Positions 2,118 through 21,637 of a stretch of DNA of 64,000 bases are shown here, one piece after another. The notes beneath the pieces are model-generated. The model was not told the origin of the DNA. It did not search any database and saw only the letters and a list, made by a program, of their open reading frames with translations. The first letter of the stretch is position 1, and each line of letters opens with the position of its first letter. The DNA is taken from the NCBI RefSeq assembly GCF_036711975.1, contig NC_091976.1:25048001-25112000 (forward strand). Direction: 5' to 3'. A program made the translations under genes and the position numbers. This stretch comes from Onthophagus taurus. Lineage: Eukaryota; Arthropoda; Insecta; Coleoptera; Scarabaeidae.

Positions 2118-2774
2118 ATGGAGTATTTTGGATACAACCCCAACATTTTTGCAATCAAACAAGATTTACCATTAAATTTGGCCTCGAAAAAAGAAGCAAT
2201 TCGTTATCATCCCTACGAAAACGTTTATTCCCAAGAATGTTTTCAAGAAATAAGTGTTAAAAAATCTCCGAGTTATACCTCAGATTCCGAAAGCTTCGTT
2301 TCGTCTTCATCTCACGAACGATTAAGTTTATCGCCACTTAATAATGGATTGGATATTGATTATCAACGTTTTCGTGAAGAACATTTATCTAAGTTACCTC
2401 AAAAAATCATTTCTAATCACAACATGAGAAGAATTGGTCAATCGATCGGTCATCATCATCAACAAATCGATCCGAGCTATAAAGAAAAACGAGAAAAGAA
2501 TAATTTAGCCGCGAAAAAATCGAGGGATGCCAGAAAACTACGCGAAGATGAGATGGTCCTGAGATGTGCTTTCTTAGAAAGTGAACTCATGAAATCATCG
2601 TTGACAAGAAAACAACACAAGATTTGTATCGAAGAAGAAAATGAAACTTTAAAGAAATTGGACCTTGTTATTTCGCAACAAACCGAATCGATTAATGAGT
2701 TTCAAAAATTAATTTTCCAATTAAAATCGAATAATAATAATTATGGGAGCCATAGTAGTGGGTTATCGATTTAA
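2118..2774 (+). CDS. bZIP transcription factor, giant/PAR family (paralogue 1)
   Basis: The gene encodes a 218-residue intronless nuclear bZIP protein, likely a sequence-specific repressor or activator. The basic region is at about residues 121-145, with [20 protein letters not shown] holding the N-x-A-A-x-S-R DNA-contact pattern. A leucine-zipper coiled coil follows from about 152, with an extended Gln/Asn-rich C-terminus. Near the N-terminus PLNLA (18-22) is a decayed form of the PLDLS (CtBP-binding) motif seen in its paralogue at 16607. A Y..FR....L.KL....SN.NMRR block precedes the basic region in this protein and in that paralogue. The ATG at 2118 is chosen because MEYFGYN aligns with MYFYGGE of the paralogue; the frame upstream starts only with GTG. 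AATAAA lies at 2938-2943. Its sister is the 16607 gene rather than the 5786 gene. Orthology to Drosophila giant itself is not proven. Confidence 0.85.
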   Translation: MEYFGYNPNIFAIKQDLPLNLASKKEAIRYHPYENVYSQECFQEISVKKSPSYTSDSESFVSSSSHERLSLSPLNNGLDIDYQRFREEHLSKLPQKIISNHNMRRIGQSIGHHHQQIDPSYKEKREKNNLAAKKSRDARKLREDEMVLRCAFLESELMKSSLTRKQHKICIEEENETLKKLDLVISQQTESINEFQKLIFQLKSNNNNYGSHSSGLSI

Positions 2775-3052
2775 AAACGTTCTATTTTAGTTAAATGTTA
2801 TTGTATTTATTTGATGATTTATAATTTATTTCGAAGAAAATTTTATTTTCTTTAGTCTGAGTTTTTGTGATCTTTAGTTTGTAATTTTTAACGATTAAGA
2901 TTTAGGGTTAATGTTATTTATGTATTTGAAGAGTGTTAATAAATCGTATTGAAAAATATCTTTATGTTTTACTACATTTTCTTAGAATTTACACAAATTT
3001 ATTAATTTTCTTGAGGTTGTGGAGCTTTATTCTTGCATTTTCGTGCTTATCA
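2775..3052 (+). other. 3' UTR of bZIP gene 1 and spacer to tRNA
   Basis: An AT-rich 3' UTR runs to the AATAAA at 2938-2943, followed by an AT-rich spacer of about 100 bp before the tRNA. Nothing else is visible. Confidence 0.55.
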
Positions 3053-3125
3053 GCCCGGCTAGCTCAGTCGGTAGAGCATGAGACTCTTAATCTCAGGGTC
3101 GTGGGTTCGAGCCCCACGTTGGGCG
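3053..3125 (+). tRNA. tRNA-Lys (anticodon CTT)
   Basis: A 73-nt cloverleaf. The acceptor stem pairs GCCCGGC with the 3' end around 3117-3125 (including a G-T type pair). The D-loop contains AGCTCAGTCGGTAGAGC (A box). The anticodon arm TGAGA-CTCTTAA-TCTCA has anticodon CTT at 3086-3088, decoding AAG (Lys). The T arm GTGGG-TTCGAGC-CCCAC holds the B box GGTTCGAGCCC. A TTTT run at 3132-3135 can stop Pol III. CCA is not encoded, as expected for eukaryotes. It appears to be a functional gene. A copy of its 3' flank, without the tRNA, lies inverted at 6880-7005. Confidence 0.96.
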
Positions 3126-3250
3126 TTAACGTTTTGCGTTTAACAAAAATTATTTTGTATTGTTAAAGAAATGTTAATGCACGTGTCGAAAAATCTTTTT
3201 TATTGTATAACCTGAAACAAAGACGTAAATGTTTCTTCGATAATAAAGTA
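3126..3250 (+). repeat. tRNA 3' flank, duplicated in inverted orientation at 6880-7005
   Basis: The sequence from just after the tRNA to about 3245 matches the reverse complement of about 6885-7005. Shared landmarks are ATTGTTAAAGAAATGTTAA, GCACGTG, TTTTTTATTGTA, and the block ending TTCTTCGATAATAAAGTAG. It then runs into the interspersed 'AGATCCAGTATGCAATGG' family, which also occurs at about 9765-9820. Confidence 0.7.
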
Positions 3251-3455
3251 GTAGAAGTTACATACAGCATACGTGGCATTTAGATCCAGTATGCAATGGT
3301 TGATTCTGATTGAGTCTTTATTTACTCGTATTTACTCTTAGTAACTTAGTTTTGCACAATGGGCCAATTTTAAACCTAAATTATAAACCAATAACTAGAT
3401 CCTGGAATTATCCATTATATACTAGATTTAATTGCCAGGTATATATGCCATCTGG
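3251..3455. repeat. Interspersed 'GATACTGGAATC'-type repeat, LINE target site
   Basis: AGAAGTTACATACAGCATAC (3250-3269) and the following bases match about 9768-9820 in direct orientation. The repeat continues to 3455, where a LINE is inserted, and resumes at 4687. It is non-coding. Confidence 0.6.
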
Positions 3456-4686
3456 CAGCTAATCACAGGCGCTATGAGATCTACACCTACGATTGCAATG
3501 GAGACTATGTTAAACGTGCTGCCCCTAGATATTTTTATCAGGGAGGTGGCCGTGATGGCATTGCTTCGGTTGCGATCAGTAAATGAAAAGCAGGTTGTTA
3601 AAATGGGAATAGTCCGGAGCAAGCTCTGGAGTGAGGCTGTTAGTAAACAACCCCTCCTTAAAGCTCGCACAGACTACATTACACCTACTTTCTTAGGCAA
3701 GCCACACTTTGGCATTGAAACGATACCCCAGAGCAACTCAAGCTCGGGCAAAACGCTGACCATCTACACTGATGGATCAAAGAAGGCTGGAGGTTCCGGA
3801 GCGGGAATCTTCTCGCACGATCTCCAGCTGCACCTTTCCACTTCGTTAGGATCGTATTGCACGACTGCTCAAGCCGAATTAATTGCTATAAACATAGCAG
3901 CCGATGCGATTATCGACTCCAAAAAAGTCGGCAGAAACGTTGTAATCTGTACTGATAGCAGACAGGCTATGCTGGCGGTTGGCAGGCATCATACTGCATC
4001 ATCGTTGGTGAAGTCCTGTCGGCAATCACTCGAAGAGGCAAACGTATATAACAACGTCACGATAAAATGGCGAAAAGGACACATCGGAATTAAAGGACAT
4101 GATCATGCGGACAGGTTGGCGAAACGGGCGGCTAACAAGTCACCGATCTCCCCTGAACCGTTTGTACCACTAGCTGTTAATACAGCATCAAAACTGATAA
4201 ACTCCATCTCCCACCGAGCTTTTTGCGATAGATGGGATGGGACAGCAGTAGGTGCCTTTGCTAAGAAAACTCTGCTCTACCCTGACCGGAAGACATCCAC
4301 TCAGTTTCTGGGAAAATCGAAAAGTGACTTGAGGCTTCTCACCCACTTCCTGACCGGACACTGCAGGTTACGTAAGCACATGTTTTACATGAAGCTGGCG
4401 AATACACCCCTCTGTAGAGGGTGTGAAATGGAAGACGAGACGGTAAGTCATATTGTTTGTGACTGTCCAAACCTCGTGTACTTAAGGGAATCTATTTTCG
4501 GAGTACCATGGCTCCAAATTTCGGATATAAGGAACATACCTTTCTGTTCTATATTAACGTTCACGAAAAGATTGGGCTGGTTTTCTGACCCTTGAATGAA
4601 CAGTAAATTGTGGGGACGTACAAAGGGTCCGCTGGGGCCTAAGTGCTGTGAGTAACTCACCCCCACGTGAAACTACATACATATAC
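3456..4686 (+). mobile_element. 5'-truncated LINE with RNase H domain and zinc-binding tail
   Basis: Coding sequence in one frame from 3456 to the stop at 4593-4595 gives the C-terminal ~380 residues of a LINE ORF2 (I/jockey-like, RNase H-bearing). It starts in the GAMRSTPT..L..PLDIFIREVA linker after RT. RNase H follows with YTDGSK (Asp codon 3771), AQAELIAI (Glu), CTDSRQA (Asp) and HADRLAKRA (Asp), so all four catalytic acidic residues are present. After that come TGHCRLRKH and a CRGC...H..C.C zinc motif. A 90-nt 3' UTR ends in a TACATACATATA-like tail. An 11-bp target duplication ATGCCATCTGG flanks it (3445-3455 and 4687-4697). The EN and RT domains are missing, so it cannot act alone. Confidence 0.9.
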
Positions 4687-5190
4687 ATGCCATCTGGATA
4701 CTGGAACCAATTCCTATACTACAGTTCTTACCTCCATGGAACCTGCATTTATGTTTTCTATATTGAAACCAGTCATTCCATAATGACTTAGATGCAGTAT
4801 CCATATACTGCATCTAATACGTAGATACTAGCATCTACACTATATACTGGAATCATCCGCTAGATACTGTATCTAATTACTATGTACACTCAATATAATT
4901 TCTAGGTACTGAAGTCAACCACTGCAGTCAGTAACTTTGTTACTTACACTCCAACATCTTTCAATAATCCTTGGCTAACATCTGGATACTGGAACCAATT
5001 CCTATACTGCAGTTCTTACCTCCATGGAAATTGCATTTATGTTTTCTATATTGAAACCATTCACTATGGATACTGCATCTGATAAGTAGATACTAGAATC
5101 TACTCTAAATACTGGAATTTACACTCAATATAATTTCTAGGTACTGAAGTCAACCTACATCTTTCAATAATCTTTGGCTCAGAGATGTGT
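4687..5190. repeat. Two direct copies of interspersed repeat
   Basis: About 4690-4920 and 4978-5155 are direct copies: both run CATCTGGATACTGGAACC, then CAGTTCTTACCTCCATGGAA, then GTTTTCTATATTGAAACC, and end near TTTCTAGGTACTGAAGTCAA. A third copy lies inverted at about 7395-7570. It is non-coding, probably a DNA-transposon derivative; the family is unknown. Confidence 0.75.
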
Positions 5191-5785
5191 TAATAATTTC
5201 TATAAATATATGTACTTCTATCTAATTTAGGTTACTTTTATCTACCAACTCTGCAAACACAAAGATATCAAAAAGCTTCCAAATGAATAATAAAATTTAC
5301 CAGAAAAAGTAGAGAGACTAAGAGATTAATGATTTTATAAATTTTAGATACTCAACCCCGTAAAATCACCGTAAAACACCGTAAAATTTAAAACATTGAC
5401 TTTGCTCATTAACGAAACATGATGAACGATGAAGAAAACTGTTAACGGTGTGGCATTTCTTTTCTAAATCTTCTTCGAAGGTAACAAGTTGCAAGTTTAC
5501 GTTTAACTCTTTTGTTGTCAACTCTTCTTTAAGCCTTTCCTTCGTTTGCGAATACTGACCCTTTAACTACCTGTTTCCATTTTTCCTTTGTGCAAATAAA
5601 CGGAGTAAATTTTAAATTTTATTTATTTAACTTTATTCTTAAAACCTAAAATTTTTCCTTAACGGTAATCACAATTTACGATAAGATATAAAAAAAATGT
5701 AAATTCAAAAACTTTTAAGCGATAATAAACATGCAAAAAGCATGCATCATCTAAAAAAAATTCCGAGATAATAATAAAGAAATAA
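5191..5785. other. Spacer and 3' UTR of giant-like gene
   Basis: No gene. On the minus strand it is the 3' side of the 5786 bZIP gene. TTTATT (reverse AATAAA) occurs at about 5618-5629, giving a 3' UTR of roughly 160 nt. Confidence 0.5.
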
Positions 5786-6310
5786 TTAACACTTTAATTT
5801 TAGTAATTCTTTCTTTAAATCGTTCACTTCGCAACTTAACTTCCAATTTTGTTGTTCTAAAAACGCACACCTAATCGCGATTTCATCTTCTTTGGCTCTT
5901 CGCGCGTCCCTCGATCTCTTCGCGGCTTCGTTATTTTTTCTCCGTTTTTCCAAATAAATTGGGTCGTCATCACCGGAACCGTTTTTGCTGTGATTATTTC
6001 GTTTCATGTTTTTATTGGTGTAGTTCATCTGTGCTTCGCCCATCATCCCCTTTCGAAATTCAACGTACTCTTGAGATGAATAAACACTTCCTAGGTAAAT
6101 CGCCAAAGAGGACGCCGAAGTAATCGAAAATGAATCCTTTTTATACGCTTTAAACGGCCGTGTTAATTTTGATGATATAATTGATGGTGAGATATCGATT
6201 GTGGAAGATGATGGTTGTTGTAAAGATGATTCTTCGTTGATTGTTGCTTTATTTTTTGGGGTGTATTTGGAAATACTTAGATCTAAAATTGAGTCTTCGG
6301 GTTCTTTCAT
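5786..6310 (-). CDS. gt: bZIP transcription factor, giant-like (paralogue 2)
   Basis: A 174-residue intronless protein and the most canonical bZIP of the three. The basic region [20 protein letters not shown] is at 121-140, and a perfect heptad zipper follows with L151, L158, L165 and L172. It stops right after the zipper, as giant proteins do. Upstream, [10 protein letters not shown] (51-60) and YVEFRKGMM...NMKRN are blocks shared with the 16607 paralogue. ILDLSISK (8-15) resembles a CtBP-binding PxDLS motif. In flies giant is a gap-gene repressor of trunk segmentation; such a role here is inferred from family. The symbol is offered because of the domain pattern and the nearby tko gene (giant and tko are neighbours in Drosophila). 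It is much shorter than the Drosophila protein. The ATG follows an A-rich leader. Confidence 0.85.
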
Positions 6311-6879
6311 TTTTTTTAAATTTTGTGTTATGGTTAGGTTCGAGGTTCGAATTGAACTGTTCGTTACTTTTGATTGCGCATATTCAACTTGGAAGTGGGC
6401 TAATCTAAGTTGTGCTTTATGTACGTGCTAAATAGATTATCATTAAATTTTCCATATAAATCAGTTCAAATTTAGTTGTTGGTAATCAAGTGATTTTAAG
6501 AAAAAATTAATTAGTTAATCGAGTTAATTTTTTTTCTTAGAAATGTTATGTAAATCAATATCGCGTTTTCTTTGGGAATTTGCAACAAAATTTGTTTAAA
6601 AAAAAATAGGTAGCGAAATGTCGTTAACTAAAAAGTGGATCGTAAATTTTAAATTTTGGCTACCGCTTCCAAAAAACCCATATTATACGACCCTTAGTCA
6701 TAAATCGACAGTAAACAGGTAGCCCGTAGACTGTTTTTTATGGTTTTATTGGGGCAATTGATTTCGCCAACAAGTTACCTTCTAAAAAAAATCGCACAAT
6801 GTATAGTTTTTTTTTTCTCTTTTTAGAAGCAGTCATTATAAAGGGGCTCCGCTACCCTTGCGAAATATTTACGGTTTTA
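6311..6879. other. Upstream region of the giant-like gene
   Basis: No coding content. Homopolymer-rich sequence. Any promoter for the minus-strand bZIP gene at 5786-6310 must lie here, but I cannot point to a TATA box. Confidence 0.45.
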
Positions 6880-7020
6880 CCTACTTTATTATCGAAGAAA
6901 CCATTTACATCTTTGTTTCAGAGTGTACAATAAAAAAAAACTTTCGGCACGTGCTTTAACATTTCTTTAACAATGCAAAATGATTTTTGTTTTAGATCTG
7001 TTTCAAATCATTTTGTAATG
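6880..7020 (-). repeat. Inverted copy of the tRNA-Lys 3' flank
   Basis: The reverse complement matches 3126-3250. The match stops where the tRNA body would begin, so there is no tRNA here. Confidence 0.7.
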
Positions 7021-7189
7021 GAATTATGCACCGAATCGGGGTTGTAATCGTTATAGAAACTGCGTGTAACTTTTCCATACCGCAAGAAGTCGTATGGAAT
7101 CTACCATTAGCAACTATGTAGGTACTAGAATTATACGCTAGAATTCTGGAATCATTCATTGGATATTGTACTTAATTATTATATTTATA

Positions 7190-7740
7190 TACTGTGTCTC
7201 TAGCATTTTGATACTGGAAGCAAGCAGTAAATATTAGTACTAATCACCGTGCAAACTTTATACAAGTTTTGCATAGTGAAACCAGGGTCCATAGATAATC
7301 AAGACTTTATTAATCTCTTAGTCTCTGGGCTTTTCTGTAAATTTTATTATAAATTATGATAGAAGTATATTTATTTATATTTATATTGAGTGTACTTAGT
7401 ATCTTAGTATACAGTATCTAGTATCTATGATTCCAGTATTTAGGGTAGATTCTAGTATCTACTTATCAGATGCAGTATCCAAAGTGAATGGTTTCAATAT
7501 AGAAAACATAAATGCAGGTTCTATGGAGGTAAGAACTGCAGTATAGAAATTGCTTCCAGTATCCAGAAGTTAAATACAGTATACATAGCATTTATGGAAG
7601 ATTCCAGTCTAGTTAATGTTTCCAGTTGTTGTGTCTTTATTATCTATGGGCATTGGTTTTATTGTGCAAAACTTAGATAAAGTTTGCACGGTGATTAGTA
7701 CTAACATTTACTGCTTGTTTCCAGTATCTAACTGCTAGAC
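7190..7740. repeat. Fold-back repeat, arms ~110 bp
   Basis: Bases ~7205-7330 and the reverse complement of ~7605-7735 match closely: both contain AAGCAGTAAAT, TTAGTACTAATCACCGTGCA, AACTTTAT, AGTTTTGCA and CCATAGATAAT. The spacer holds an inverted copy of the 4981-5130 repeat (GGTTTCAATATAGAAAACAT at about 7480-7500). Confidence 0.8.
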
Positions 7741-9640
7741 TAGTTTTCATAAACAACTATTCCAGGAATTTTTAATCTTTCATCTTTTTCCACATTTTTG
7801 TATTAACCGAAAATGTTAGTTTTATTTCAATATCATTTTTCTCCAAATTTTTCAAATACAACCCAACGACTGTTATATATCAATCGAAAGAGAAATCTTT
7901 GCAGTTTAATTAGAGATAAATCTTATTTCTTAGTTTTCAGAAACAACGGTTTCACGAATTTTTAAACTTTAATTTTTTTCGAAATTTTTGTATTAAGCGA
8001 AAATGTTAGTTTTATTTCAATATACTTTTTCTCAAAATTTTTCAAATACAACCCAACGACTGTTATATATCAATCGAAAGAGAAATCTTTGCACTTTAAT
8101 TAGAGATAAATCTCATTTCTTAGTTATCATAAACAACTCTTCTAGGAATTTTTAAACTTTCATCTTTTTTGACATTTTTGTATTAACCGAAAATGTTAGT
8201 TTTGTTTCAATATTATTTTTCTCAAAATTTTTCAAATACAACCCAACGACTGTTATATATCAATTGAAAGAGAAATCTTTGCACTTTAATTAGAGATAAA
8301 TCTCATTTCTTAGTTTTCAGAAACAACGATAACACGAATTTTTAAACTTCCATTATTTTCGACATTTTTGTATTAAGTGAAAATGTTAGTTTTATTTCAA
8401 TATCATTTTTCTCAAAATTTTTCAAATACAACCCAACGACTGTTATATATCAATTGATAGAGAAATCTTTGCACTTTAATTAGAGATAAATCTCATTTCT
8501 TAGTTTTCAGAAACAACGCTACGAAAAATTTTTAAATTTTCTTCTTTTTCGAGGTTTTAGTATTAACCGTAAATGTTAGTTTTATTTCAATATCAATTTT
8601 CTCCAAATTTTTCAAATACAACCCAACGATTGTTATATATCAATCGAAAGAGAAATCTTTGAGCCTTAATTAAAGATTAATCTCATTTCTTAGTTTCCAG
8701 AAACAACGCTACCACGAATTTTTAAAGTTTCATTTTTTTCGAAATTTTTATATTAAGCGAAAATGTTAGTTTTATTTCAATATCATTTTTTTCCAAAATT
8801 TTTAAATACAACCCAACGATTGTTATATATCAATCAAAAGAGAAATCTTTGCACTTTAATTAGAGATAAATCTCATTTCTTAGTTTTCAGAAACAACGCA
8901 ACGAAAAATTTTTAAATTTTCTTCTTTTTCGAGGTTTTTGTATTAACCGAAAATGTTAGTTTTATTTCAATATCAATTTTCTCCAAATTTTTCAAATATA
9001 ACCCAACGACTGTTATATATCAATTGAAAGAGAAATCTTTGTACTTTAATTAGAGATAAATCTCATTTCTTAGTTTTCAGAAACAACGCTACGACAAATT
9101 TTTAAACTTTCATTATTTTCGACATTTTTGTCTTAAGCGAAAATGTTAGTTTTGTTTCAATATCATTTTTCTAAAAATTTTTTAAATATAACCCAACGAT
9201 TGTTATATATCAATCGAAAGAGAAATCTTTGAGCCTTAATTAAAGATTAAACTCATTTCTTAGTTTTTAGAAACAACGATAACACGAATTTTTAAACTTC
9301 CATTATTTTCGACATTTTTGTATTAAGTGAAAATGTTAGTTTTATTTCAATATCATTTTTCTCCAAATTTTTTAAATACAACCCAACGACTGTTATATAT
9401 CAATTGAAAGAGAAATCTTTGTACTTTAATTAGAGATAAATCTCATTTCTTAGTTTTCAGAAACAATGCTACGACAAATTTTTAAACTTTCATTATTTTC
9501 GACATTTTTGTATTAAGTGAAAATGTTAGTTTTATTTCAATATCATTTTTCTCCAAATTTTTTAAATACAACCCAACGATTGTTATATACCAATCGAAAG
9601 AGAAATCTTCGAACTTTAATTAGAGATAAATCTCATTTCT
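7741..9640. repeat. 190-bp tandem repeat, ten head-to-tail copies
   Basis: The string ACCCAACGA(C/T) recurs at 7861, 8051, 8241, 8431, 8621, 8811, 9001, 9191, 9381 and 9571, exactly 190 bp apart each time. Each unit carries AAATGTTAGTTTTATTTCAA, TGTTATATATCAAT and TTAGAGATAAATCT. There are point changes but no length change. Variants recur in patterns: the GCTACGAAAAA/GCAACGAAAAA type in units starting near 8501 and 8881, the GATAACACGAA type near 8311 and 9261. This points to amplification in multi-unit blocks. The array stops sharply at 9641-9650. No conserved reading frame. Confidence 0.95.
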
Positions 9641-9685
9641 CAGTTTCCATAGCGATTACAACCCTGATTAAGTGCTTAATTTCAG

Positions 9686-9870
9686 TATACAATGATTGAT
9701 TCCAGTATCTAGTGGATGATTCCAATATCTAATTCTTGGGTTTAGTATCAATTGGTGTCATTATTCAGAAGTTACATACAGTATGCATGGCAATTAGATC
9801 TAGTATATCTAGTATACAATGGATAATATCAGTATCTAGTTATTGGGGCTGGTTTTAGTATGCAAAAAAT
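9686..9870. repeat. Interspersed repeat, same family as 3250-3300
   Basis: AGAAGTTACATACAGTATGC at about 9768 and the 'TCCAGTATCTAG' text repeat the family seen at 3250 and 4700-5150. Confidence 0.6.
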
Positions 9871-12800
9871 ATGACAATTAGTTCTTACTTCATATTTGAT
9901 TGTCTCCACCATTAATTTTTATACCGTTTTTTAAGGGCTACCATTGTCAAAATCGATCATGGATTTATACAGGTTTTTCCAGTAACTTTCGACTTCCAAC
10001 AATCAAAGATCAAAAGTTTCCAGCCTCTTTGTACTTAAAGTTGTAACTTTGCCAATGTTATTCTTTTTGAACATTATCTATGTCTCATTATGTTTAATTT
10101 ATTTACATGATTAATAAATAATAAATGAAAATCAATGAATGATTTTTTTCTCAGTACCATATAAAAATGCGATAAAGTTGAAAACACCACTTAAAAATAA
10201 AAAAGGTTGAAACAAAAAAAAATGGGTCAGCTTCTGGATTTACTTTTGGAAACTTCTTGGAAACCGACTAAAAAAGTAGAAAAAAAAGCATAAAAAAGTA
10301 ATAAAATTTTATTATCGGCGACGAAAGTGCTTGCACTTTTTTTGCGACTTTATTTAACACAATTGAAAACCATCCCTCAGTAATAACTTAAGAAAAACGT
10401 TCGAGTCTATTTTTAGGAAACCGAAACAATAGGCGAAATCCTAAAAGTATTTACTAAAAGGATTGCAAAAAGAAAAGGGGGTGGTTTTTGTCAAGTTGTC
10501 TTCTTACGCAAATCCTCCATAGCAGGTAAACTAGCAGTCATCGACCACCAACATTTTTACTTACAAAAATAAAAATCATTTTTTTGATGAAATAACAAAA
10601 ATAAATCCTTATCTAGTTAGAAATCTTTATGATTATTTTTTTTCTGGGTGGTCACCGCTATTTCTAGCTGTAAAATCCAGGATATAATAAAATACCCCAG
10701 TTTAACCCTTTCAAGGGCCAGGTGACACAAAATCTTAAAGGGTTCTTCCCACACACAACCCCACATAATGCGCGGTAAACAACCGCTACCGATTGTCCAT
10801 TGGTTGCAGAAAGATTTTAAACGGTCCGTTGCCTTCTTATAAACGTCACGAAAAATCCTTCCGTTTACGACTCAATATAACAATTTTTGTAGGCGATCGA
10901 ATTACAAGAAGACGACCACCGTTACGGTTCCAGAAATTTCCGAAATCTTTTCTGCAAACACCCCATATCTTATGGCGTGAACAAAGATTACTGATGAAAT
11001 AAGTATGTAAAGAAGAAACAATAACAAGGAGATTATTTTGTTATTCAAGATTAGTAACAGTTATGTAAGGTTTAAGATGAACGAAACGGCGTGGATTTCA
11101 CAGATTATTTACCAAAAAATTAAGGAACTTTTCTTTAAGGAGCTGTGACGAAAAAACTAACGGAAACGTTTTCTTTAGTCATTAAATTTTTTTCAATGGT
11201 GGTTGGTTTTCGTAATAATTAGAGGTTTCAAAAAATAATTTGTGGTGTTTTTATTAAAGCTTTACTGTATTGGTCAATTATTAGTCACCCTAAAACTCAC
11301 GTCATCCCTTCTGATGACACAACCAACCCTTTTCCTCTTCCGCAAATCACACATTTCTGGGGAGGAAATATTCCCTATTGATCGCAAATAACAATAAAAC
11401 TTAATGAATATTGAAGGGGTTTTTCGAAAGAATAAATTTCTAGGAAAGAAAAATTGCAAAAAACGTTATACGCAACAGTTTGGAACAATTTGCTTTTCAA
11501 GGAAACTCGTTGACAAATGGAGTAAGATTCTTTTACAAAAGAGTTAATGGTTTTCGGGAGCTTTTTGTCTCGAAAAGTCATTTATAACATTTACCACACC
11601 GCCGAAGATTCAAAAACAAATTTTTAGGATAAAAAAAAAATGTATTTGTTATAAAATTTAAAGAAATAAACAGTCCAGATGGTTTTTAAAACCGGACAAT
11701 GAGACAACTGCCACCGGAAATATGAAAAGATGATAATCTCTCCCAAAAATTTTCGTTTATTAATGCTGATGGGTTTTTGCTGAAACTCACGTCAGAGACG
11801 AGGTTTTCGAATGGAAGTGACAGACTTGGACAATAGTCAAACGGAATAAGTGTAATCCCGAGATTATGATCTCGTCACAAAAACCGAAAACGACACAGAG
11901 ACGTATTTAGCACCATTAAAAATGAAATCCCTATTATTTTTATTACGGTTATTTATGATTCTGTTGAGTTAATGTTACCATTTTAAATTAATGTTTTAAA
12001 AAAAGAATTTTGATTTAACTTAATATTTAGTGTTCAGTTAAAATTTTAGTTAAACTTTTAAATCCGACCCTGTTTTTACCCTTTTTAGTGGTAAAGGAGC
12101 AGGTGGTCCAGAATATGGACACTGTCCACGGTGACACATGAATAGAACTGACCACAATGGGTTGCTCATATCACGGTATATTGCATTTTTTTTAAAGTAA
12201 ACCTCTAAAAACTTTCGTTCGTTTTTATCAACTTAAATTCGTTATTAATTTTAGTTGCGGAAATAGAAAAGCAAAAAATTTTTAAATTACTAAATCGGGG
12301 TCAAATCAAATAACGGGTATTGACCTATTTTGACCCTTTTTCAGTGTGCCAGGTGACAGATGCACTTTGGCGAGGGTGTTCCCACACAAACAATCCATAA
12401 TGTGGGGCGAATGAAGACCACCGAATACATCCCTTGAGTTCCGTATTCCGTTGCTCTTTTATCCGCAATACAGTTTTGAACAGCTTTTGTATCATAGGGA
12501 TCAAGGTCAAAGAAGGATATATAACGGGATGCAAGAAGGATTAGTGGAAAAGGGGAAAAATTGTAATGTAATAAGTTATGTTATAATAAAGAGTATTCTA
12601 AAAATTTTATAAATAACATAATTCGTTTATTATGTTATTATTATGTTATTATGTATTCTGTTTATTTTTGCAAGATTAACATTTGTTTATATCTTGTTGG
12701 CTTAATATAATGTCTGAAACAACACAATGGGAAGAATGGAAGCTCGACTAAATCATCTAAACAATATTTTTTGTAGGATGTGATGCAGTTCGTAAATAGT

Positions 12801-13304
12801 TTTCACGAAATTTAAAGCACATTTTTTGGGAAATTTGCTTATTAACACCGAATAAGATAGTATTTAAAACTTACTGAACCTAGATAACAACCATCTAAGG
12901 AATTAATTATCATAGAAAAGGATTAATGAATGAAATGGAGGGAGATCCAAACCTAAACTTTTTTAAGAGTATTCTTCTTTATACTTTTACTTAAAGTATA
13001 TCATGAATAGAAGATTTACATTGCCAATACTGCAGATTGGAAACTATGTTGCAAAAAGCTGAAAAAACAGCGAATCTTTGATAAATTCTTCTGGTGATAC
13101 ATTATCAATCATGATGTCTGTTATTAGTATTAGTAGCAGCCTCTCTTCAACATACCAGCTTTATGGTAATAACTGTGTCGATTTTTTCGTGGTAAGCGAA
13201 TACTAAGAAATATCGTTGTCAAAACATTTTTATTTTTACATCACTGATACTGAAGTTATCCTGGCGATAAAAATGGTTGTTCTGAAAGATCCTCATTTAC
13301 CACT
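9871..13304. other. Long non-coding spacer between bZIP genes
   Basis: No gene is supported; open frames here are short and featureless. Two blocks resemble each other: about 10700-10785 and 12330-12405. Both contain CCAGGTGACA, then TTCCCACACA and a CCATAATG/CACATAATG motif. They could be old repeat copies or duplicated regulatory DNA of the bZIP cluster. Confidence 0.4.
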
Positions 13305-14900
13305 GATGCTGATATGGCACGAAATAGTATCAATGAAGATCTGGGAGAGTCACACCAAGAGATAGTAAATTAACAATAATGCGTTTAGTGCCAAAACAGG
13401 GATCACTTTCCTTGAGGCATAAACGATTTTAAGCCTGCAAGCTGATGTTAAAACAGCTATTCATAAAAATAGCCCAACCCTCAACAATTAGTTATCAACG
13501 AACAAACAGATAGAGTAAAATATCTGGGGATTCATTTGGATACAAGACTCACTTGGAAATATCATATCAACTTGAAGCTAAATAAAGCTTATGGGAGACT
13601 AGCTGAATTATATAGTATCATAAACAGGAAATTTTCCCTTAAACCTGAATGCACTATTCTAATTTACACCTCGTTAATTCGCCCAATGGTGATGTACGCC
13701 TGTGAAATATGGGGAATCAAATCGGAAAAAGTTGTGTGCACTACAAAATAAGATACTTAGAATAGCTGTGGAAGGCGAATGGTTTATCACAACCAAGCAA
13801 CTACACAACGAATTGGGCTTTAAAACGATTCAAGAGTTTATTTCAACGAAAATCAAAAAGTTCCACGAATGATTACACATGTTCACATCAACAGAACTCT
13901 ATAATTTGGGCGGAAGAAATATTCACAGGCGATTGCAACGGATATTATCCCAAGATCTATACTTATTGTAAATTATTTTTCCTGTAATCCAACCCAACCC
14001 AAGCCAACTCAACGCAACCCACAAGGTGGTTAGGAGAGCGAAGGCGAAATAAATAAAGATAACCCAAGCTATCCAAGCTGCACTAAATATATCAAAATTA
14101 CATGGAAATTGCAACACCAAGAGGTGCTAAGAATTTTTTCATCAAACTTGACAGGAACGTTTCACTACTAAAATTAATAATGGGTCAGTTATAGGCTTTC
14201 CAACTTTTAGTAGCAACTGTTTATAAGATTATCGATTTCCTCTTGAGCCATTATATACAAGCAACTTGTAATTCGCAATGTAGGACTTGTAGAGTCTACG
14301 GAGGATGCAAAAAATTTGTCAATTCCCTTACTTACTGGAAAAATGAGTGTTCCAACCGTATGAAGAAATAAAAAAAAATATGAGGTTCTATCACTTTACC
14401 CTCATGTGGTTGGAGGTTCATATTGTCTGGGAGAAATGCTTACTCCCACAAGTTATAGCAACTCATATCATAATTTACCATACGTTGCCCATATTTTCGT
14501 CATCGTTACGGTCATCATGCATCTTAAAACAGAATCAGAATTCATCACTACTTTATGCCACTCTAGGATCGTGTAATTATCTCCACCAGACCAAACGTCG
14601 TTGTAGGTGGTGAATTCATAATATGAGACGAAATAGCATCAATGAAAATCTGGGGGAGGCACATCAAGAGATAGTAAATTAACAATATTGCGTTTTGTGC
14701 CAAAACAGGGATCACTCTCGTTTCTTAGTATACATTTTGAGGAATGCACGATTTTAAGCCTGCAAGTTTGCTGTTAAAACAGCTGTCATAAAAATAACCC
14801 AAGCTATCCAAGCTGCCCTAAATATATTAAGTGACATGAAAATCGTAACACCTCTTGGTGTTGCGAAGAATTTTTTCATCAAACTTGCCAGAAAACTTAA
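13305..14900. repeat. Duplicated unclassified repeat, one copy split by a LINE
   Basis: About 13310-13476 plus 14055-14160 corresponds to about 14620-14895. Both copies contain AGATAGTAAATTAACAATA, GCCAAAACAGGGATCACT, CGATTTTAAGCCTGCAAG, then AACCCAAGCTATCCAAGCTG and AAGAATTTTTTCATCAAACT. The first copy is interrupted by a LINE fragment; the second keeps the joined site at about 14795-14810. No protein is recognised. Confidence 0.75.
13477..14054 (+). mobile_element. 5'-truncated jockey-type LINE fragment
   Basis: Translation gives the C-terminal post-RT region: VKYLGIHLDTRLTWKYHIN, then LIRPMVMYACEIWG, close to the 36566-39122 element (YLGVYLDQRLTWKYHIN, LIRPIVTYACPVW). There are several stops and one internal frame shift. 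The flanks AAAAATAGCCCA (13465-13476) and AAAGATAACCCA (14055-14066) look like a diverged target duplication. The uninterrupted repeat at about 14800 confirms the insertion. It is an older, dead relative of the jockey copy further right. Confidence 0.75.
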
Positions 14901-14929
14901 TATTGCACTATCACTACAACTAATACAAG

Positions 14930-15195
14930 ACCTAGAACTAGAATCATTCGGGTTTAGCCGTCTTGAGAGACGTGCGGCTAAAGCCGAATGTTTCTAGTTC
15001 TCGGTTTAGTGTTAGTTGTAGGTTTATACAAGCACTATTGTTAGAACTAACACAAGACTTAGAACTAGGTAGGTCTAGTGTTAGTTCTAGTTTTAGTCCA
15101 ATAAAAATATGCAACATAGTAATATCTTATGTTAACTAACGCTACCTACCATTGTCACTTGAACTAACATTAGACCTAGAACTAGAAGCATTCAG
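14930..15195. repeat. Palindromic repeat family (TAGCCG-TCTTGAGAGACGTG-CGGCTA), copy 1
   Basis: A central hairpin at about 14947-14992 has arms CATTCGGGTTTAGCCG and CGGCTAAAGCCGAATG (one mismatch). Both sides are flanked by repeats of ACTAACACTAGACCTAGAACTAG or its complement. The flanking text recurs several times to 15190. Other copies lie at 41895-41955, 43180-43400, 61500-61610 and, degenerate, near 63440-63600. Confidence 0.8.
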
Positions 15196-16015
15196 ACATG
15201 TTGCATTTTATGTGGGACAAAGTAAATAGGTATGCGAAATATATTTTTGTATATTGCATTTTAAGTAAAATTTACTGTATATTTTTCAAAATGTAAATTA
15301 AAAGAAAAAATACGTTATAAGGACAGGTGGTAGTAGTTTTCTCGAAAACCTTCAAACCATCATCTCCCAGAAGTTACCCAAAAATTATACTGGTAACCCG
15401 TTATATCCGCGAAAGAATGGAACGAAACTAGGCCCACATTATATACAGTTATTAGGCCGAACAAACGACAGAGACATCAATCACGACAAAGCTTTAACAC
15501 AAAGCTTCGTCTTCGAGGGACTCTTGGGAAAAGTAAACCACGACAGTCGACAGAAAAAGGCTTAACAATAACTCTCATATTTGTATGGATGTATGACAAG
15601 TGACATATTTGAACGAAACTGCGTACTCTTTTTTGCAACAAAACTTTAAAAGAAAACTTTAAAATGTGTCGATGTTCTTTTAAAAGTAATAATTCGATTG
15701 CGATCAATCTTGATTTTTGAGATGTATTTTGATATGAAACTTTCTTTTCCAAGTAAAACACGCAATTTTACTTAAAAATCGTCTGACAATGAATAGAAAG
15801 GGGGTGAAATATCTTCTCTTAGCTTTCTCCTTTCTTTTTAAACGGAATTAGGTGAATGTCATCGTGTTGAGAAAGAAAAAAAACGGTTCCTTTTTTTTGT
15901 TGTTGATGCCCAGGTTGTCACCAGAAAAGGGTCATAAATTAGAAGAGGATTTTTTTAAAAGATGCCACGCGTTTTGAAATTTTTATTCAATTTAAACTAC
16001 TTCTTAAAAACACAG
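15196..16015. other. Spacer downstream of tko
   Basis: Nothing convincing is coded. TTTATT at 15982-15987 (reverse AATAAA) is a fitting poly(A) signal for tko, some 30 nt past its stop. Confidence 0.45.
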
Positions 16016-16359
16016 TTATAATTTTCTTGGTATTACATGTCCTAAATCATATTTTCCCCTAACACACTTTAATTTAACCCCGGGGCAATCTTGAACTCTT
16101 CCAACTTGACACAGGACGATGTTGTGTTCTTGTAAAGTGTGTCCAATTCCGGGAATATAAGCAACCATTTCTTTCCCATTCGTTAATCGAACGAGGACGC
16201 ATTTCCGGTTCGCCGAATTCGGTTTTTTCGGCTTTTTGATTAAAGTTTTTAAAATGATTCCTTTCATAAAAGGATTACCATCCAATGGGTTTTTTGAGGG
16301 ACGATCTTTCATTCTCGGTCCCGATTTTAACATTTTTCTTAACGAAGACATTGTTCGCT
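16016..16359 (-). CDS. tko: Mitochondrial small-subunit ribosomal protein uS12m, exon 2 (technical knockout)
   Basis: Exon 2 encodes most of mRpS12, the decoding-site protein of the mitochondrial 28S subunit. Recognised strings are [34 protein letters not shown] and LQEHNIVL, followed by [20 protein letters not shown], the universal uS12 core (the PNSA and PGVKLK loops). The acceptor TTTATTTTCAG precedes 16359. Exon 1 lies at 21562-21637; the split codon joins as GAG, and the join gives a 139-residue protein, about the length of the fly protein. Together they form a 5.6-kb gene whose 5.2-kb intron contains a bZIP gene on the same strand. Start from exon 1, not from the internal ATG at 16351. 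Nuclear-encoded, imported; the N-terminus of exon 1 is the likely presequence. Confidence 0.95.
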
Positions 16360-16606
16360 CTGAAAATAAACAAATTACGCAAATAACGAGTTATTACTTA
16401 ATTGAAATATAAATAAAACGTTTATTGTGTTTTAATGGGATTCAAATTAGGTTTTTAGTTAAAGAATTTTGATGTTAACTTTAAGTTGACGTAATATTTT
16501 TGAGTTCTTTCAAGGTTAAAGAAATCGGAATTAAAATAAAACTTTCATATATTTATTTAAAATAATCTATTTACAATATTTTATTATACATCAAAATTTA
16601 CACTTT
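16360..16606. other. tko intron, 3' part, and 3' UTR of the nested bZIP gene
   Basis: AT-rich. The poly(A)-type signal TTTATT at 16580-16585 fits the minus-strand bZIP gene that ends at 16607. Confidence 0.5.
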
Positions 16607-17245
16607 TTATCTTAGTTTGTTTAAATTATTTAATTCGTAGAAATAAACTTGTTTCAATTGATCTAATCTTTCGTTTTGCTGCGAAACCAAAAATTTTTTT
16701 TCCTCAATTTTACCCCGAATGTTCTGTAAAACAACGTTGTCTTGGTCAATTAACGTTTTTAGCTTGATTAATTCTGCTTCTAAGAACGCGACGCGTATCG
16801 TTAGCTCATCTTCGCGTAATTTTCGCGCATCCCTCGATCTTTTTGCGGCTAAATTATTTTTTTCTCTTTTTTCTCGATAAAGTGGGTCCTCGTTTTGTTT
16901 CCAATGATTCGTTCGGCGCATATTTTGATTCGATGAGGTTCTCGGGCGTAATTTAGCCAAACTAACAGATCGAAATTTTTGATATTTTTCTTCCATCGTT
17001 TCAGCATCATCTTCAGCCACATTTAATGGTAACATACTCATAATCGATAACGGATTTCTTTGGTACGCTTTAAATGGTCTTACTTCAATCGAATTTGAAT
17101 CTAAATTAGTAATTTCTTGATTGTCGGGTTTTGTTTCGGTTTTTTCGACGGGTTCTGGAGTGGTTTCTTTTTTTCTTGATAAATCCAAAGGGATATCTTG
17201 GGATTCATTTTTAACTTGTACTAATTCACCACCGTAAAAATACAT
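16607..17245 (-). CDS. bZIP transcription factor, giant/PAR family (paralogue 3), nested in tko intron
   Basis: A 212-residue intronless protein. [10 protein letters not shown] contains a perfect PLDLS CtBP-binding motif at 19-23, the corepressor contact used by short-range repressors such as giant and Kruppel. [14 protein letters not shown] (56-69) is shared with paralogue 2. The block [13 protein letters not shown]...SNQNMRR is shared with paralogue 1. The basic region is at 124-144 ([20 protein letters not shown]) with a coiled coil from 155 on; heptad leucines are less regular than in paralogue 2. A C-terminal extension [12 protein letters not shown] pairs with ISQQTESINEFQK of paralogue 1, so these two are sisters. 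The ATG at 17245 is preferred over an upstream in-frame TTG. It lies wholly inside the tko intron, same strand. Role in embryonic patterning is inferred only. Confidence 0.87.
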
Positions 17246-17744
17246 TTTGTCTTTAATCGTTTGCAATGTTGCAATGAAAGGTCAGTTTACGACTGACCTT
17301 GGTAAAGATGTTTTGGCAATTTTACCGATGTTTTGACCAGGTTTTTGGGTAGAGAGAGAAAGAGGGTGGTGTCTCATCGGTCATTTCTTCGACCAATCGT
17401 TGACAATAACTCCTCCCACTATTTTTAGACTATTTCCTGTTATAATGGTGATAGGGATGGTGAGACTTTTTGGTATAACAACAAAAATAATAATTTAAAA
17501 TAAATCACATTTCAATCAATTTGGTATGAAGTCTATAATTAAATTGATATGGTATACATTCAACTTTCTTGCGTATTTATAAGGTACAAAGAGAGTGTGC
17601 AGAACATTTTAACTGCCTATTTCTCTATTTTCTGGACAAAGGAACATTCTTATTATTCCTATTCTTATGAGGAAAAATTAATGTGTAACAAAAGTTAGGA
17701 CGAACAACAAGGGGACAGAAACATCCAAGTTTACGTAAAAAATG
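17246..17744. other. Upstream region of nested bZIP gene (within tko intron)
   Basis: Non-coding. It would carry the promoter of the minus-strand bZIP gene. No TATA box is evident. Confidence 0.4.
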
Positions 17745-19600
17745 GAAACAGATATAAACTTTTTTTTTGTCAAGCCTTATGTTTGGACTTTACTTCGCAG
17801 ATATAGAGAATTAGCTCTGTGCCCATCTCTTGAGCGGTCGTCTATACATGCATATTCTGGCAAATCACCTCTCATCCATTCTTTCATGCTCCTTTCTCCA
17901 TTTCACTACATCTTGTATGTTACATCTCTCTCTGATAAAGGTGCTGGTCTGCCTATCACGCAGTGTCATATTCAACATAGATCTTACTCTTTCATCTCCA
18001 TCATCCTCATCCTCTGTTTAGTCTTCTTTGTTTCTGCTATCGTCTCGGTACCATATGTTAGTATGGGTCGTACCATGGCTTTATATATTTTCCTTTTCTA
18101 CTAGTGGTTCGCACGAGACCAACCAGACGAGATTTTCATAAAGTCTTGTCTCGTCGATGAACTACTAAGTCTTATATCAAGTCTCGTTTCTCGTACGAGA
18201 GTCTCATAAAAGTATCGAAATCTCGTCATGCATAATCTTATTGTTTCACTGCAATGAGGAATTCTTCAATACTTGCTATAACGTAAGAGTCGGAAGAAAG
18301 AATTACAGCCCTCAACCCTGTCGGTCGCAAATGATTTTGTTTTTCACCCAATCGTTTAGGCATAACAAACATCGCGCAGATTTATTATTAAGGCGATTTC
18401 GATGTTTTCTTATAGTTAATGCAGCACGTGAGAATAATCTTTCCGCCGGGACTGAAGTAGCCGGTATGCTTAAGAGATCTCGTGTCATTAAACTTAAAAT
18501 AGGAAATTCAGAAGCCTGAATTTTCCACCATTATAATATATCTGTGTCTGTATTACACCGAGGTATAGAATAATATTTTTGAAGCTCCTGCATCCATTCT
18601 CCTTCGAAAGGCGTAGGATTTGGATTTACTGCATACCAAAATCAATTACAAAATCCGACTTTTCTACTCTAGAATCTTCTCGTTCCTCCAATGCCGCCGC
18701 TACTTTCGAATGTTGGCCTTCTGATTAATGGAAATAGGCTTTGTATACATAATATAACGTATTTGTATCTTCAAACTTCTATCTTATGCCGCGAATCGAG
18801 AATTAAAACTGCAGCATAAATCTGCTTTAATGTTTTGTTTCTCGCAGCCTGAAAACTAACAATAAGCTGCTCTTCGACAGCGTTTCAATGTACCTTTCGG
18901 TCCCATGCAAATATTTTGCTCTCAATATGATTTATTAGTATATTAATACATACAACCACCATAGGTAATTTGACGTACTTCATTCCTCCGAGTTTCTTGG
19001 AAAGTATTTGAAAGTTGACTAGTAATTTATGCACTTCTTCTAGCAATATCCATTCCTTGCCCTCAAGAGAATCATTTAAATCAACAACATTTTGACACAA
19101 TGCACTAAGTCCATGTACCTACCTTCAAGAGGTACTTTCAACATTACTGGAATTTCAGCGTGTAGATACGAAAATATTTACAGAAATATTGCAAATATTA
19201 TTTGCAGAAATACTTACCAGCGAGACTCTCGTACGAGACGCAAGACCTCATGCACGAGACCATGCGAGACTCTCGTACGCACCACTATTTTCTACGCATG
19301 TATTTGTTCCGCCATATAGTGTCCTTTAGACAGTCTGCCACTTGTGTCGCTGTTGTAACTTGTGCTTCCTTACATAGCTCTCGATAGCTTGTAATTTCTA
19401 CACCTAGATATTTAACATGCGTAACTTCTTCTATTATAGAGTCTTGAACTTGTAGTTAATAATAATAATAATAAACCATTTATTGATATTCAATTACAAA
19501 ATCAAGCTAAGTTTGCGTCTTGGTTCTTTGGATATTACCATACATTTTGTTTTCTCCGTTGATATTTATATATTGTAACTTTCCTACACATAGACTAAAT
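17745..19600 (-). pseudogene. RTE-type LINE fragment, split by a hAT element
   Basis: On the minus strand, before and after the hAT insertion, one reads parts of an RTE-clade RT C-terminal region. About 19600-19510 gives STEKTKCMVISKEPRRK. About 19445-19296 gives IIEEVTHVKYLGVEITSY and TIWRNKYMR. Past the hAT, about 18090-17770 gives AMVRPILTYGTETIAE, LRDRQTSTFIRERCNIQDVV and KWRKEHERMDER. Stops and frame changes are frequent. A 45-bp piece at about 19457-19502 ending in (ATT)n-type repeats interrupts it and looks like a tiny LINE tail. It sits inside the tko intron. Confidence 0.75.
18102..19287 (-). mobile_element. hAT transposon, decayed, with intact 8-bp target duplication
   Basis: The ends are TAGTGGTTCGCACGAGA (18102-18118) and, inverted, TCTCGTACGCACCACTA (19271-19287): 17-bp terminal repeats with two mismatches. 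TTTTCTAC flanks both ends (18094-18101 and 19288-19295), the 8-bp duplication that defines hAT. Subterminal runs of CTCGTACGAGA-type motifs occur at both ends. The remaining coding piece, minus strand 19100-18885, reads WILLEEVHKLLVNFQILSKK and then LGGMKYVKLPMVVV, the region before the dimerisation part of hAT transposases. The rest is degenerate, so it is non-autonomous. Confidence 0.9.
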
Positions 19601-20720
19601 TTGGTAACCCGCGCAGCAGAGAGAAATCAATATTCCTTGATGAGAAAGTATCGACACTATAGCATTAAAAGAAAATAATGATAATGAATGTACTGATTGT
19701 GACATAAGGTCTTTAAAAGGTTCAACCTCGGAATCCTGCTTGATTTATGTATTAGGACTGCCTCTCTTGCGGGTTCCAAAAACTGTTTGGTGCAAAATGT
19801 GCTTTGGGACTTCCTCGTCATCCATCCTTTCTAGATGTCCGAGCCAACCTTAACCTATTGATTTTGATTATGAATGTACTGTTTGTGACTGTTGTGATTT
19901 GATTAGAAAAGTACCACAAGAATTATCTTTGATCGCCGTGGACCTATGGGTAGAAAATCGATTGGCTGAACCTAACAAGGTCGAAGATCAGGGGTTGGAG
20001 ACAACAAGCGCGGGATGAACAAGGTTGGAAGGAACTGTTGAAAGATCCAACGAGCTTTAGAGCTATAATGATTAATAACTGCCTTGTATTGAGTCATTTC
20101 ACGTATAATATCGTCAAAAAAAAGTGTTTATGATAAAATATTCAGAGATTCCTAGATGCAATCAAATAGTCTTGGTCCTTAAAAGGTTTTTGAAGAGCTC
20201 ATCATCATCATTGGCACCACAACCCCTGGTGGATCTTGACCTGTTCTAGGATCAGCTTCCACTCTCTTGTATCTCGTGCGTTAGCCTTCCCGGTTCTAAC
20301 TCCCAGCATTTTTACACCTTCTTCCACCTGGTCTTTATATCTACTTCTAGGTCTGCCTCTCTTGCCGGTTCCAAAAACTGTTTGGTGCAAAATTAGCTTT
20401 GGGACTTCCCCGTCATCCATCCTTTCTAGATGGCCGAACCAACCTTAACCTATTGATTTTGATTATGAATGTACTGATTGTGACATACCAGAACATTTGG
20501 AATTAATCAAACTGCAAACGTTGAGATGGATTAGAAAAGTACCACAAGAATTATCTTTGATCGCAGCGCCGTGGATCTATGAATAGAAAATCGATTGGCT
20601 GAACCTAAGATGGTCGAAGATCAGGGGTTGGAAACAACACGCGAGGTTGGAAGGAACCACCTTAACCTATTGATTTTGATGGATTGTACAATATTCGGTT
20701 CTTCATAGAGCCGATACAAC
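19601..20720. pseudogene. Mosaic of LINE 3'-terminal coding fragments
   Basis: Minus strand 20420-20208 reads RMDDGEVPKLILHQTVFG, then KRGRPRSRYKDQVEEGVKML and TREWKLILEQVKIHQGL, a C-terminal LINE tail. An inverted or repeated piece of the same lies at about 19755-19840. Plus strand about 19980-20045 reads GWRQQARDEQGWKELLKD from a similar tail of another copy, repeated near 20610-20660. The text CTTAACCTATTGATTTTGAT occurs three times (about 19850, 20440, 20662). These are rearranged fossils in the tko intron. Confidence 0.6.
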
Positions 20721-20851
20721 TAAAAAATGTAACGCGTTCTTTGAAGAGCTCTTGCTGATACTAATATTAGAAGGTCTTATTTAGGAGCTTCAGCATTGAT
20801 CTTCATCATCCTCTAAAATGATCTTTGTCTTAATTTGGTTTTACACCATGC

Positions 20852-21140
20852 TAATTAATTATCGTAACCCACGTGACCTGTGTAATATTGGCTGCATATC
20901 TCAATATGTAGTGGTAGCTTCGATAATTTTAAATTTGTTGTGATTGTCGTACGCTTTGCGAGTTTCCGTATTTTCTTTGTTCTTTAACCGTTTTAGCTTC
21001 CTTTATATTTTTCGAAACAGTTCTTTACTATCGTTGTTTCTAGCGGTTGCTTTATGCGGTAAGTCAATAAACAAATCAAAATAACCACTACTTTACAATC
21101 TGTGATATTGGTTGCATACTTTGGGTACGATAATTAATTA
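20852..21140. repeat. Short element with ~19-bp inverted ends
   Basis: TAATTAATTATCGTAACCCA (20852-20871) is inverted at 21122-21140 (TGGGTACGATAATTAATTA), followed inward by a second matching pair around TGTAATATTGG / GATATTGG. It is probably a MITE of ~290 bp in the tko intron. Family unknown. Confidence 0.5.
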
Positions 21141-21561
21141 ACACACTGTATCTTTGTACTATTCTTCTCTCTTATTACTTAATTCTGCTCCGCTAGATTC
21201 CCTGGAAATTAATCCCATCTTTTTGGGATCCACTAAGTTCGTTTTTGTACAATCTTAATTTGTATAAACTTAATTTTTATGTTATACATCAATATCTTTT
21301 CGGGTATCCACATATAGGCAACTCATTTAACACATAATTTTTTTTAATTAAATTAAACTTTATTTTAGATTAAAAACTTTTATTATTACTTAAACTACCG
21401 TTATTTCACGATCATAATTTATATCTAAAAAACATAATAAATTGCATTTATTTAAATTTTTGCGATATTAACCCTTTTGAATCCCATTTGACATTTCATA
21501 TAAAATCGTAAAAATTATTTAAAAAATTAAACTTAAATTAAGAACAAAAAACAGTACTCAC

Positions 21562-21637
21562 CTTGAATATCCATAAAGTTATTTGTAACCAAATTAATCG
21601 GCTGAATTTTATTGACTAAACCCCTCAACATGTTCAT
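21562..21637 (-). CDS. tko: tko exon 1 (mitochondrial uS12m N-terminus)
   Basis: The exon has 76 nt: 25 codons beginning MNMLRGLVNKIQPINLV plus one base, ending CAAG before a consensus donor GTGAGT (21561-21556). Its split codon continues in exon 2 at 16359 as GAG. The Arg/Lys-bearing, Ser/Asn-rich start without acidic residues suits a mitochondrial targeting peptide and resembles the short N-terminus of the fly protein. Confidence 0.9.

Follow-up and report, generated by a model that had tools for sequence, protein, structure and literature searches.

Three giant-type bZIP genes beside tko in Onthophagus taurus, two of them with a changed leucine zipper

We analysed a 64,000-nucleotide stretch of the Onthophagus taurus genome (the window, C11:25048001-25112000; positions below are counted from its first letter) and found three giant-type bZIP genes next to tko, a mitochondrial ribosomal protein gene (mRpS12), with one of the three inside the tko intron. 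Giant is a textbook gap gene. Taking identity, relatedness and the changed zipper of two of the genes together, the locus is quite probably a giant cluster. By sequence, gene 2 is giant proper and genes 1 and 3 are giant-type paralogues; only gene 2 was filed under the name itself because genes 1 and 3 lack the Asn at zipper position a21 and the short zipper. This zipper change reads as the most informative one at the locus.

One canonical copy and two copies with a changed interface would make a natural test case for how repressors, once duplicated, avoid interfering with each other, and the zipper Asn predicts a yes-or-no dimerisation outcome. Besides, the locus sets a whole gene inside the intron of a gene for a mitochondrial ribosomal protein.

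The three bZIP genes and their kinship

Gene 1 (2118-2774, plus strand, 218 amino acids), gene 2 (5786-6310, minus strand, 174 amino acids) and gene 3 (16607-17245, minus strand, 212 amino acids) are intact, single-exon open reading frames (ORFs) that all lie within 15.1 kb, and tko is on the minus strand as well. Against the bZIP_2 profile (PF07716, cut-off 22.3 bits), they scored 35.0, 55.9 and 48.9 bits, respectively. The first-pass annotation of this DNA had described three intronless bZIP genes within 15 kb; the three genes and their spacing stand, and the lack of introns is established for the ORFs only. The frame of gene 2 stays open for 39 codons upstream of its first ATG. As that annotation had also noted, genes 2 and 3 share RPFKAY (6143-6160 and 17063-17080, both minus strand), and genes 1 and 3 share a basic region and a C-terminal SQQ extension; an 11-residue stretch and SQQ are indeed present in both of the latter. 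RPFKA(Y/F) ahead of the bZIP domain is presumably a giant feature, and it is absent from gene 1. Gene 1 has PLNLA where gene 3 has PLDLS (17177-17191, minus strand); gene 2 has ILDLS. When the three proteins were compared by tblastn with the window and the preceding 20 kb (expect value, E, up to 1), no decayed or further copies were found beyond the three genes; the one extra hit (E 0.23) was antisense within gene 1.

In searches of the whole genome (290,825,966 bases, 33 contigs), gene 3 retrieved gene 1 at E 1.0e-26 and gene 2 at E 8.3e-20. With any of the three as query, the remaining two came back at E 1.4e-12 or better, and the next-best match was a Pdp1-like exon on contig C1 (E 1e-6 to 4e-6). 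The bZIP_2 profile returned 27 matches, 18 of them above the cut-off. Outside the cluster, the genome holds this Pdp1-like exon, a vrille-like gene on C8, a PAR-like exon on C3, and C/EBP, Jun, CREB and ATF genes; the names of these other bZIP_2 matches were assigned by eye. Besides genes 1 to 3, no giant-type bZIP was detected in this genome, as far as likeness of sequence can tell. Among PDB sequences, gene 3 matched 13 at E up to 0.01, including C/EBP and NFIL3.

The first-pass annotation had named as the unfavourable outcome of a bZIP phylogeny that the three genes fall in unrelated clades, and this did not occur. In a tree of seven of the 18 matches above the cut-off (genes 1 to 3, the Pdp1-like and C3 PAR-like exons, the vrille-like gene and C/EBP), genes 1, 2 and 3 stood on one side of a branch with support 90/97, and genes 1 and 3 joined within it (90/95). 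The other 11 matches, including CREB, ATF, Jun and Xbp1 types and a second C/EBP-like exon, were left out of the trees. A ten-row tree combined these seven sequences with fly Giant and human HLF, neither taken from a database, and NFIL3 from the PDB; here, genes 1 to 3 grouped with Giant (83/84), and genes 1 and 3 with each other (100/99). The suggestion that gene 2 is the canonical gene and that genes 1 and 3 are sisters is supported by these trees. By the approximately unbiased test (p-AU), a union of genes 1 and 3 with Pdp1 was rejected in the own-genome tree (0.018), and a union of gene 3 with Giant was rejected in the ten-row tree (0.002).

Gene 3 appears as the bridge between genes 1 and 2, because it keeps the RPFKAY block as in gene 2 and has a zipper as in gene 1. 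Its N-terminal half matched that of gene 1 (z-score 13.5) and that of gene 2 (11.6), with 0 of 1000 shuffles as high in either comparison. In the 41-codon bZIP core, nonsynonymous and synonymous divergence (dN and dS, by the NG86 method) were 0.199 and 1.334 between genes 1 and 3 (dN/dS about 0.15), and 0.336 and 1.061 between genes 2 and 3; dS between genes 1 and 2 was not computable. A stretch of 75 bp matches between genes 1 and 3 at 88%. Recent gene conversion between these two genes was considered and dropped because codon identity was without marked excess: in the 40-codon core, identical codons at the same residues were 21 of 31 for genes 1 and 3, 17 of 26 for genes 2 and 3, and 13 of 25 for genes 1 and 2.

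Several results weigh against this account of the kinship. The two trees were built on 89 and 97 columns, both the branch of genes 1 to 3 and the one joining them with fly Giant are unstarred, and both trees drew long-branch warnings (for C/EBP, vrille and the C3 PAR-like exon). In the own-genome tree, a union of genes 2 and 3 survived the test (p-AU 0.107), and the N-terminal halves of genes 1 and 2 showed no match beyond chance (z-score 0.8; 221 of 1000 shuffles). NNLAAKRSR was considered as a signature confined to genes 1 and 3 and rejected, as the Pdp1-like exon on C1 carries it too; because of this shared NNLAA, the motif is no sign of their sisterhood.

Gene order bears on identity as well. 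In Drosophila, gt is flanked by CG32797 and tko, and the regions amplified by polymerase chain reaction at the fly locus run in number from 1 at CG32797, past 4 at the gt promoter and 9 at 6 kb upstream, to 13 at tko, which places tko upstream of gt (PMC3852391). In the window, tko is upstream of gene 2, and both are on the minus strand. This shared placement of tko gives independent support for the giant identity of the cluster. It also suggests that giant and tko were already linked when flies and this insect diverged. The first-pass annotation had proposed conserved microsynteny plus a lineage-specific expansion: the first part stands with the fly-like tko adjacency, and the expansion is not established. 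In the ten-row tree, genes 1 to 3 came together apart from fly Giant weakly (73/80), and a union of gene 2 with Giant was not rejected (p-AU 0.241).

Two other views of the cluster have to be weighed at this point. The first duplication may be ancient, with genes 1 and 3 descending from a giant-like paralogue that predated the fly split and was lost in flies, perhaps renamed elsewhere; we would then be looking at retention, not expansion. We hold this to be possible, at well under even chances. As gene 2 could be joined to fly Giant with genes 1 and 3 left outside, the first duplication could predate the fly split, with later loss. Gene 2 is also distant from genes 1 and 3, at 34% and 40% across the alignment and at 41% and 43% in the best-matching local segment. 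However, the best ten-row tree weakly unites the three genes apart from Giant, and local clustering suits tandem duplication, although a cluster of great age would give the same picture. Moreover, Table 2 of PMC9632033 gives a single giant for Drosophila, Apis and Tribolium and lists none for two hemipterans, and the available text of PMC5132259 scores giant merely as 'present' in two beetle transcriptomes where other duplicates are recorded. Very improbable, in our view, is that the cluster is not giant but some other PAR/CES-2-type family lying near tko by chance. The basic regions of PAR, CES-2 and giant are all alike, and the fly Giant of the tree did not come from a database; against this, the genome has separate Pdp1-like, vrille-like and PAR-like genes, tko adjoins on the fly side, and no better giant orthologue was seen elsewhere in the whole-genome protein and bZIP_2 searches.

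The changed zipper of genes 1 and 3

Zipper residues are numbered such that the Arg of the basic-region SR is 0; across the first heptads, genes 1 and 3 can be aligned to gene 2 gap-free. Core position a21 is Asn in gene 2 (5846-5848, minus strand) and Leu in gene 1 (2586-2588, plus strand) and gene 3 (16769-16771, minus strand). Asn occupies a21 in 13 of the 16 readable zippers of the genome, those of gene 2, the vrille-like gene and C/EBP included; the exceptions are genes 1 and 3 and a Crebl2-like gene, which has Val. The 16 are the 18 matches above the cut-off minus the Pdp1-like and C3 PAR-like exons, which end before a21; for the Pdp1-like exon, the splice donor is visible. Their zipper exons were not found in about 10 kb beyond each, using a simple pattern and open frames of at least 25 codons.

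Zipper length differs too: gene 2 has four heptads, and genes 1 and 3 continue in the same register to eight. The extension (residues 32-66) lies at 2619-2723 (plus strand) in gene 1 and at 16634-16738 (minus strand) in gene 3, and all five of its a positions are hydrophobic in both genes. For genes 1 and 3, respectively, shuffling gave p 0.003 and 0.006 for the a positions, and 0.002 and 0.027 for a and d positions together. Over the eight heptads, the a positions are hydrophobic at 7/8 in gene 1 and 8/8 in gene 3. AlphaFold, with input alignments of three sequences only, predicted a single helix at 119-213 in gene 1 and 121-211 in gene 3; the mean predicted local distance difference test scores were 68.3 and 70.2, with values above 90 over most of the helices.

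Other features of the extended zipper count against the reading favoured below. The d positions are hydrophobic at only 4/8 in each gene, and the core of gene 1 contains S24, R28, H31 and E38. Between the extensions of genes 1 and 3, dN (0.907) is not below dS (0.845), and apart from the heptad pattern purifying selection is not visible there.

As for dimerisation, pairs of Asn with Leu, Ile or Val at a-a' are very frequent among non-binders and rare among binders, and Asn-Leu pairs strongly destabilise bZIP dimers (available text of PMC4335062). The net charged g-e' pairs of our genes were +6 for 2:2, +4 for 1:3, +3 for 1:2, +3 for 2:3, +2 for 1:1 and 0 for 3:3. Since electrostatics would not separate genes 1 and 3 from gene 2, the argument for insulation is the Asn mismatch. 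We put the chances at about even that the zipper change would prevent genes 1 and 3 from forming dimers with gene 2. On the unfavourable side, the charged pairs alone would permit 1:2 and 2:3 dimers, and a21 is the second a position of the zipper, with an Asn mismatch described as far less important at the ends of coiled coils (PMC4335062, available text). A preference for 1:3 pairing is suggestive only.

Genes 1 and 3 might work chiefly as the two components of a single factor, an obligate 1:3 heterodimer, which we consider a tentative alternative with the balance tilted against it. The 1:3 pair reaches its net g-e' value without repulsion, and 3:3 carries K41-K46 and R55-K60 repulsions; in the core, R28, E38, K45 and E66 each oppose a hydrophobic residue in 1:3 and themselves in the homodimers, and H31 opposes D31. 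However, unlike zippers in general tend to look better paired with each other than with themselves, and extra complementarity of the 1:3 core was rejected, as polar sites (5/17 in gene 1, 4/17 in gene 3) coincide at 2 positions vs. 1.2 expected; homodimers are conceivable too. A more far-reaching version seems unlikely to us: the two genes would be halves of a new obligate heterodimer born in a gap-gene locus, with the Asn loss insulating the pair from giant and all Asn-bearing bZIPs and opposed charged core residues tying the copies together. The outcome would be a second independent repressor on the sites of giant, with the same enhancers, and with gene 3 read from within tko. Less credible still is that gene 1, gene 3 or both are decaying duplicates without a current role, whose zipper changes are drift. 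The polar core of gene 1, its missing RPFKAY, its PLNLA in place of PLDLS and the high dN of the zipper extension would suit decay, but both ORFs are intact (218 and 212 codons), the 41-codon core shows the low dN/dS given above, and the a positions of the extension are hydrophobic throughout in both genes.

The tko intron and the surrounding sequence

The two-exon model of tko on the minus strand is in frame, has consensus donor and acceptor sites, and yields a product of 139 amino acids. Coding exon 1 (21562-21637) presumably encodes the targeting peptide, judging from its position, and exon 2 (16016-16359) matches Ribosom_S12_S23 (PF00164) with 84.7 bits at 16019-16351. Genome-wide, tko gave one strong match, as for a single-copy gene, and a second, weak one on C3 (E 0.0013). 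The intron (16360-21561, GT...AG) measures 5,202 bp and wholly encloses gene 3 on the strand of tko, in agreement with the earlier claim of a third bZIP gene inside a 5.2-kb tko intron on the same strand.

Two AATAAA follow gene 3 directly, in the sense orientation of the tko intron (16552-16585, minus strand, starting at 16585 and 16557; motif matches only), 22 and 50 bases past the stop codon, and a TATAAA stands 336 bases ahead of the ATG. These motifs would permit an independent unit, which would place poly(A) signals in the tko intron. They prove little, because this A+T-rich intron holds 6 TATAAA and 9 AATAAA in total. At 18200-19200 (minus strand), the intron also contains apparent remnants of a hAT-type DNA transposon, judged by eye.

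Around gene 2, inverted repeat copies are found at 4691-5118 and 7199-7739 (143 bp at 94%). This repeat is nearly private to the locus, with six matches genome-wide, three of them local and three elsewhere at 71-75%. Another inverted repeat of 93 bp (87%) lies at 3142-3234, downstream of gene 1 and a tRNA, and at 6899-6991, upstream of gene 2. The tRNA is a tRNA-Lys (CTT) directly downstream of gene 1 (3053-3125, plus strand). Between genes 1 and 2, an open frame with an RNase H domain (3432-4592, plus strand) is probably the tail of an element without long terminal repeats (non-LTR). Between genes 2 and 3, a tandem array (7741-9750) consists of ten copies of a 190-bp unit, whose relatives are dispersed over many contigs (at least 122 matches; the best 40 of 613 candidates scored). 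The window further holds a rhodopsin-family G protein-coupled receptor in two pieces, dopamine D2-like by eye (33312-34930, minus strand), and an open frame of 597 amino acids with a reverse transcriptase domain (37200-38990, plus strand). About 11-16 kb before the window, RpL9-like (Ribosomal_L6 domain) and ABC transporter genes (L036:4517-5254 and 7929-8837, minus strand) are possible synteny markers. A search for TCAGG, a telomere repeat common in beetles, gave 0 matches, which carries no weight as to the insect order.

A proposed history and its counterparts in known systems

We favour a scenario in which the giant locus, still beside its old neighbour tko, would have expanded to three bZIP genes. 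Gene 2 would be the canonical repressor copy, and genes 1 and 3 would be sister copies that largely kept the basic region and changed the zipper (a21 from Asn to Leu, four heptads to eight). Such a change would block their pairing with Asn-bearing bZIPs, gene 2 and vrille among them. The two may then repress the same class of site in insulation, each as a homodimer or together as a 1:3 heterodimer. With a largely unchanged basic region, all three genes most likely bind the same class of site. Gene 3 may have been placed within tko when a copy arose in direct orientation upstream of gene 2, and it may have a promoter and a poly(A) signal of its own. Since tko and the giant family were already neighbours, this nesting can come from local duplication.

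At the regulatory level, PLDLS of gene 3, ILDLS of gene 2 and PLNLA of gene 1 resemble what we take to be the CtBP-binding motif. These N-termini suggest that repression could be CtBP-dependent, as it presumably is for Giant. Auto-regulation was tried and set aside: the window holds 2 TTACGTAA sites vs. about 2.5 expected, and 2 RTTAYRTAAY sites. So few sites count against the scenario.

A complete gene nested in the intron of an unrelated gene, on the same strand, is a common arrangement in insects. Gene 3 resembles these cases in lying complete within the intron of the unrelated tko, and differs from them in that host and guest family were already neighbours. The PAR bZIP (Pdp1/HLF), vrille/NFIL3 and C/EBP families are like the cluster in basic region and register, but they have their own genes elsewhere in the genome.

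Other gap genes have been duplicated in insects, namely the knirps family, tailless (twice in Callosobruchus) and orthodenticle (available text of PMC9632033 and PMC5132259). The present locus is alike in having extra copies of a gap gene, and differs in that the available text of these two papers gives no zipper changes and no giant case is among the open-access matches listed. Titles and abstract openings of those listed matches announce no insect giant paralogues, which is weak evidence of absence.

The nearest counterpart is giant of Drosophila, which has a bZIP_2 domain and tko next door upstream, as here. Fly Giant presumably has a short zipper with Asn at a21, and in this it is matched by gene 2; the RPFKA(Y/F) and (N/K)MRR motifs are presumably further likenesses to the fly protein. 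In contrast to the single giant of Drosophila, Tribolium and Apis, O. taurus has three copies; two of them have Leu at a21 and a zipper of eight heptads, and one lies within the intron of tko.

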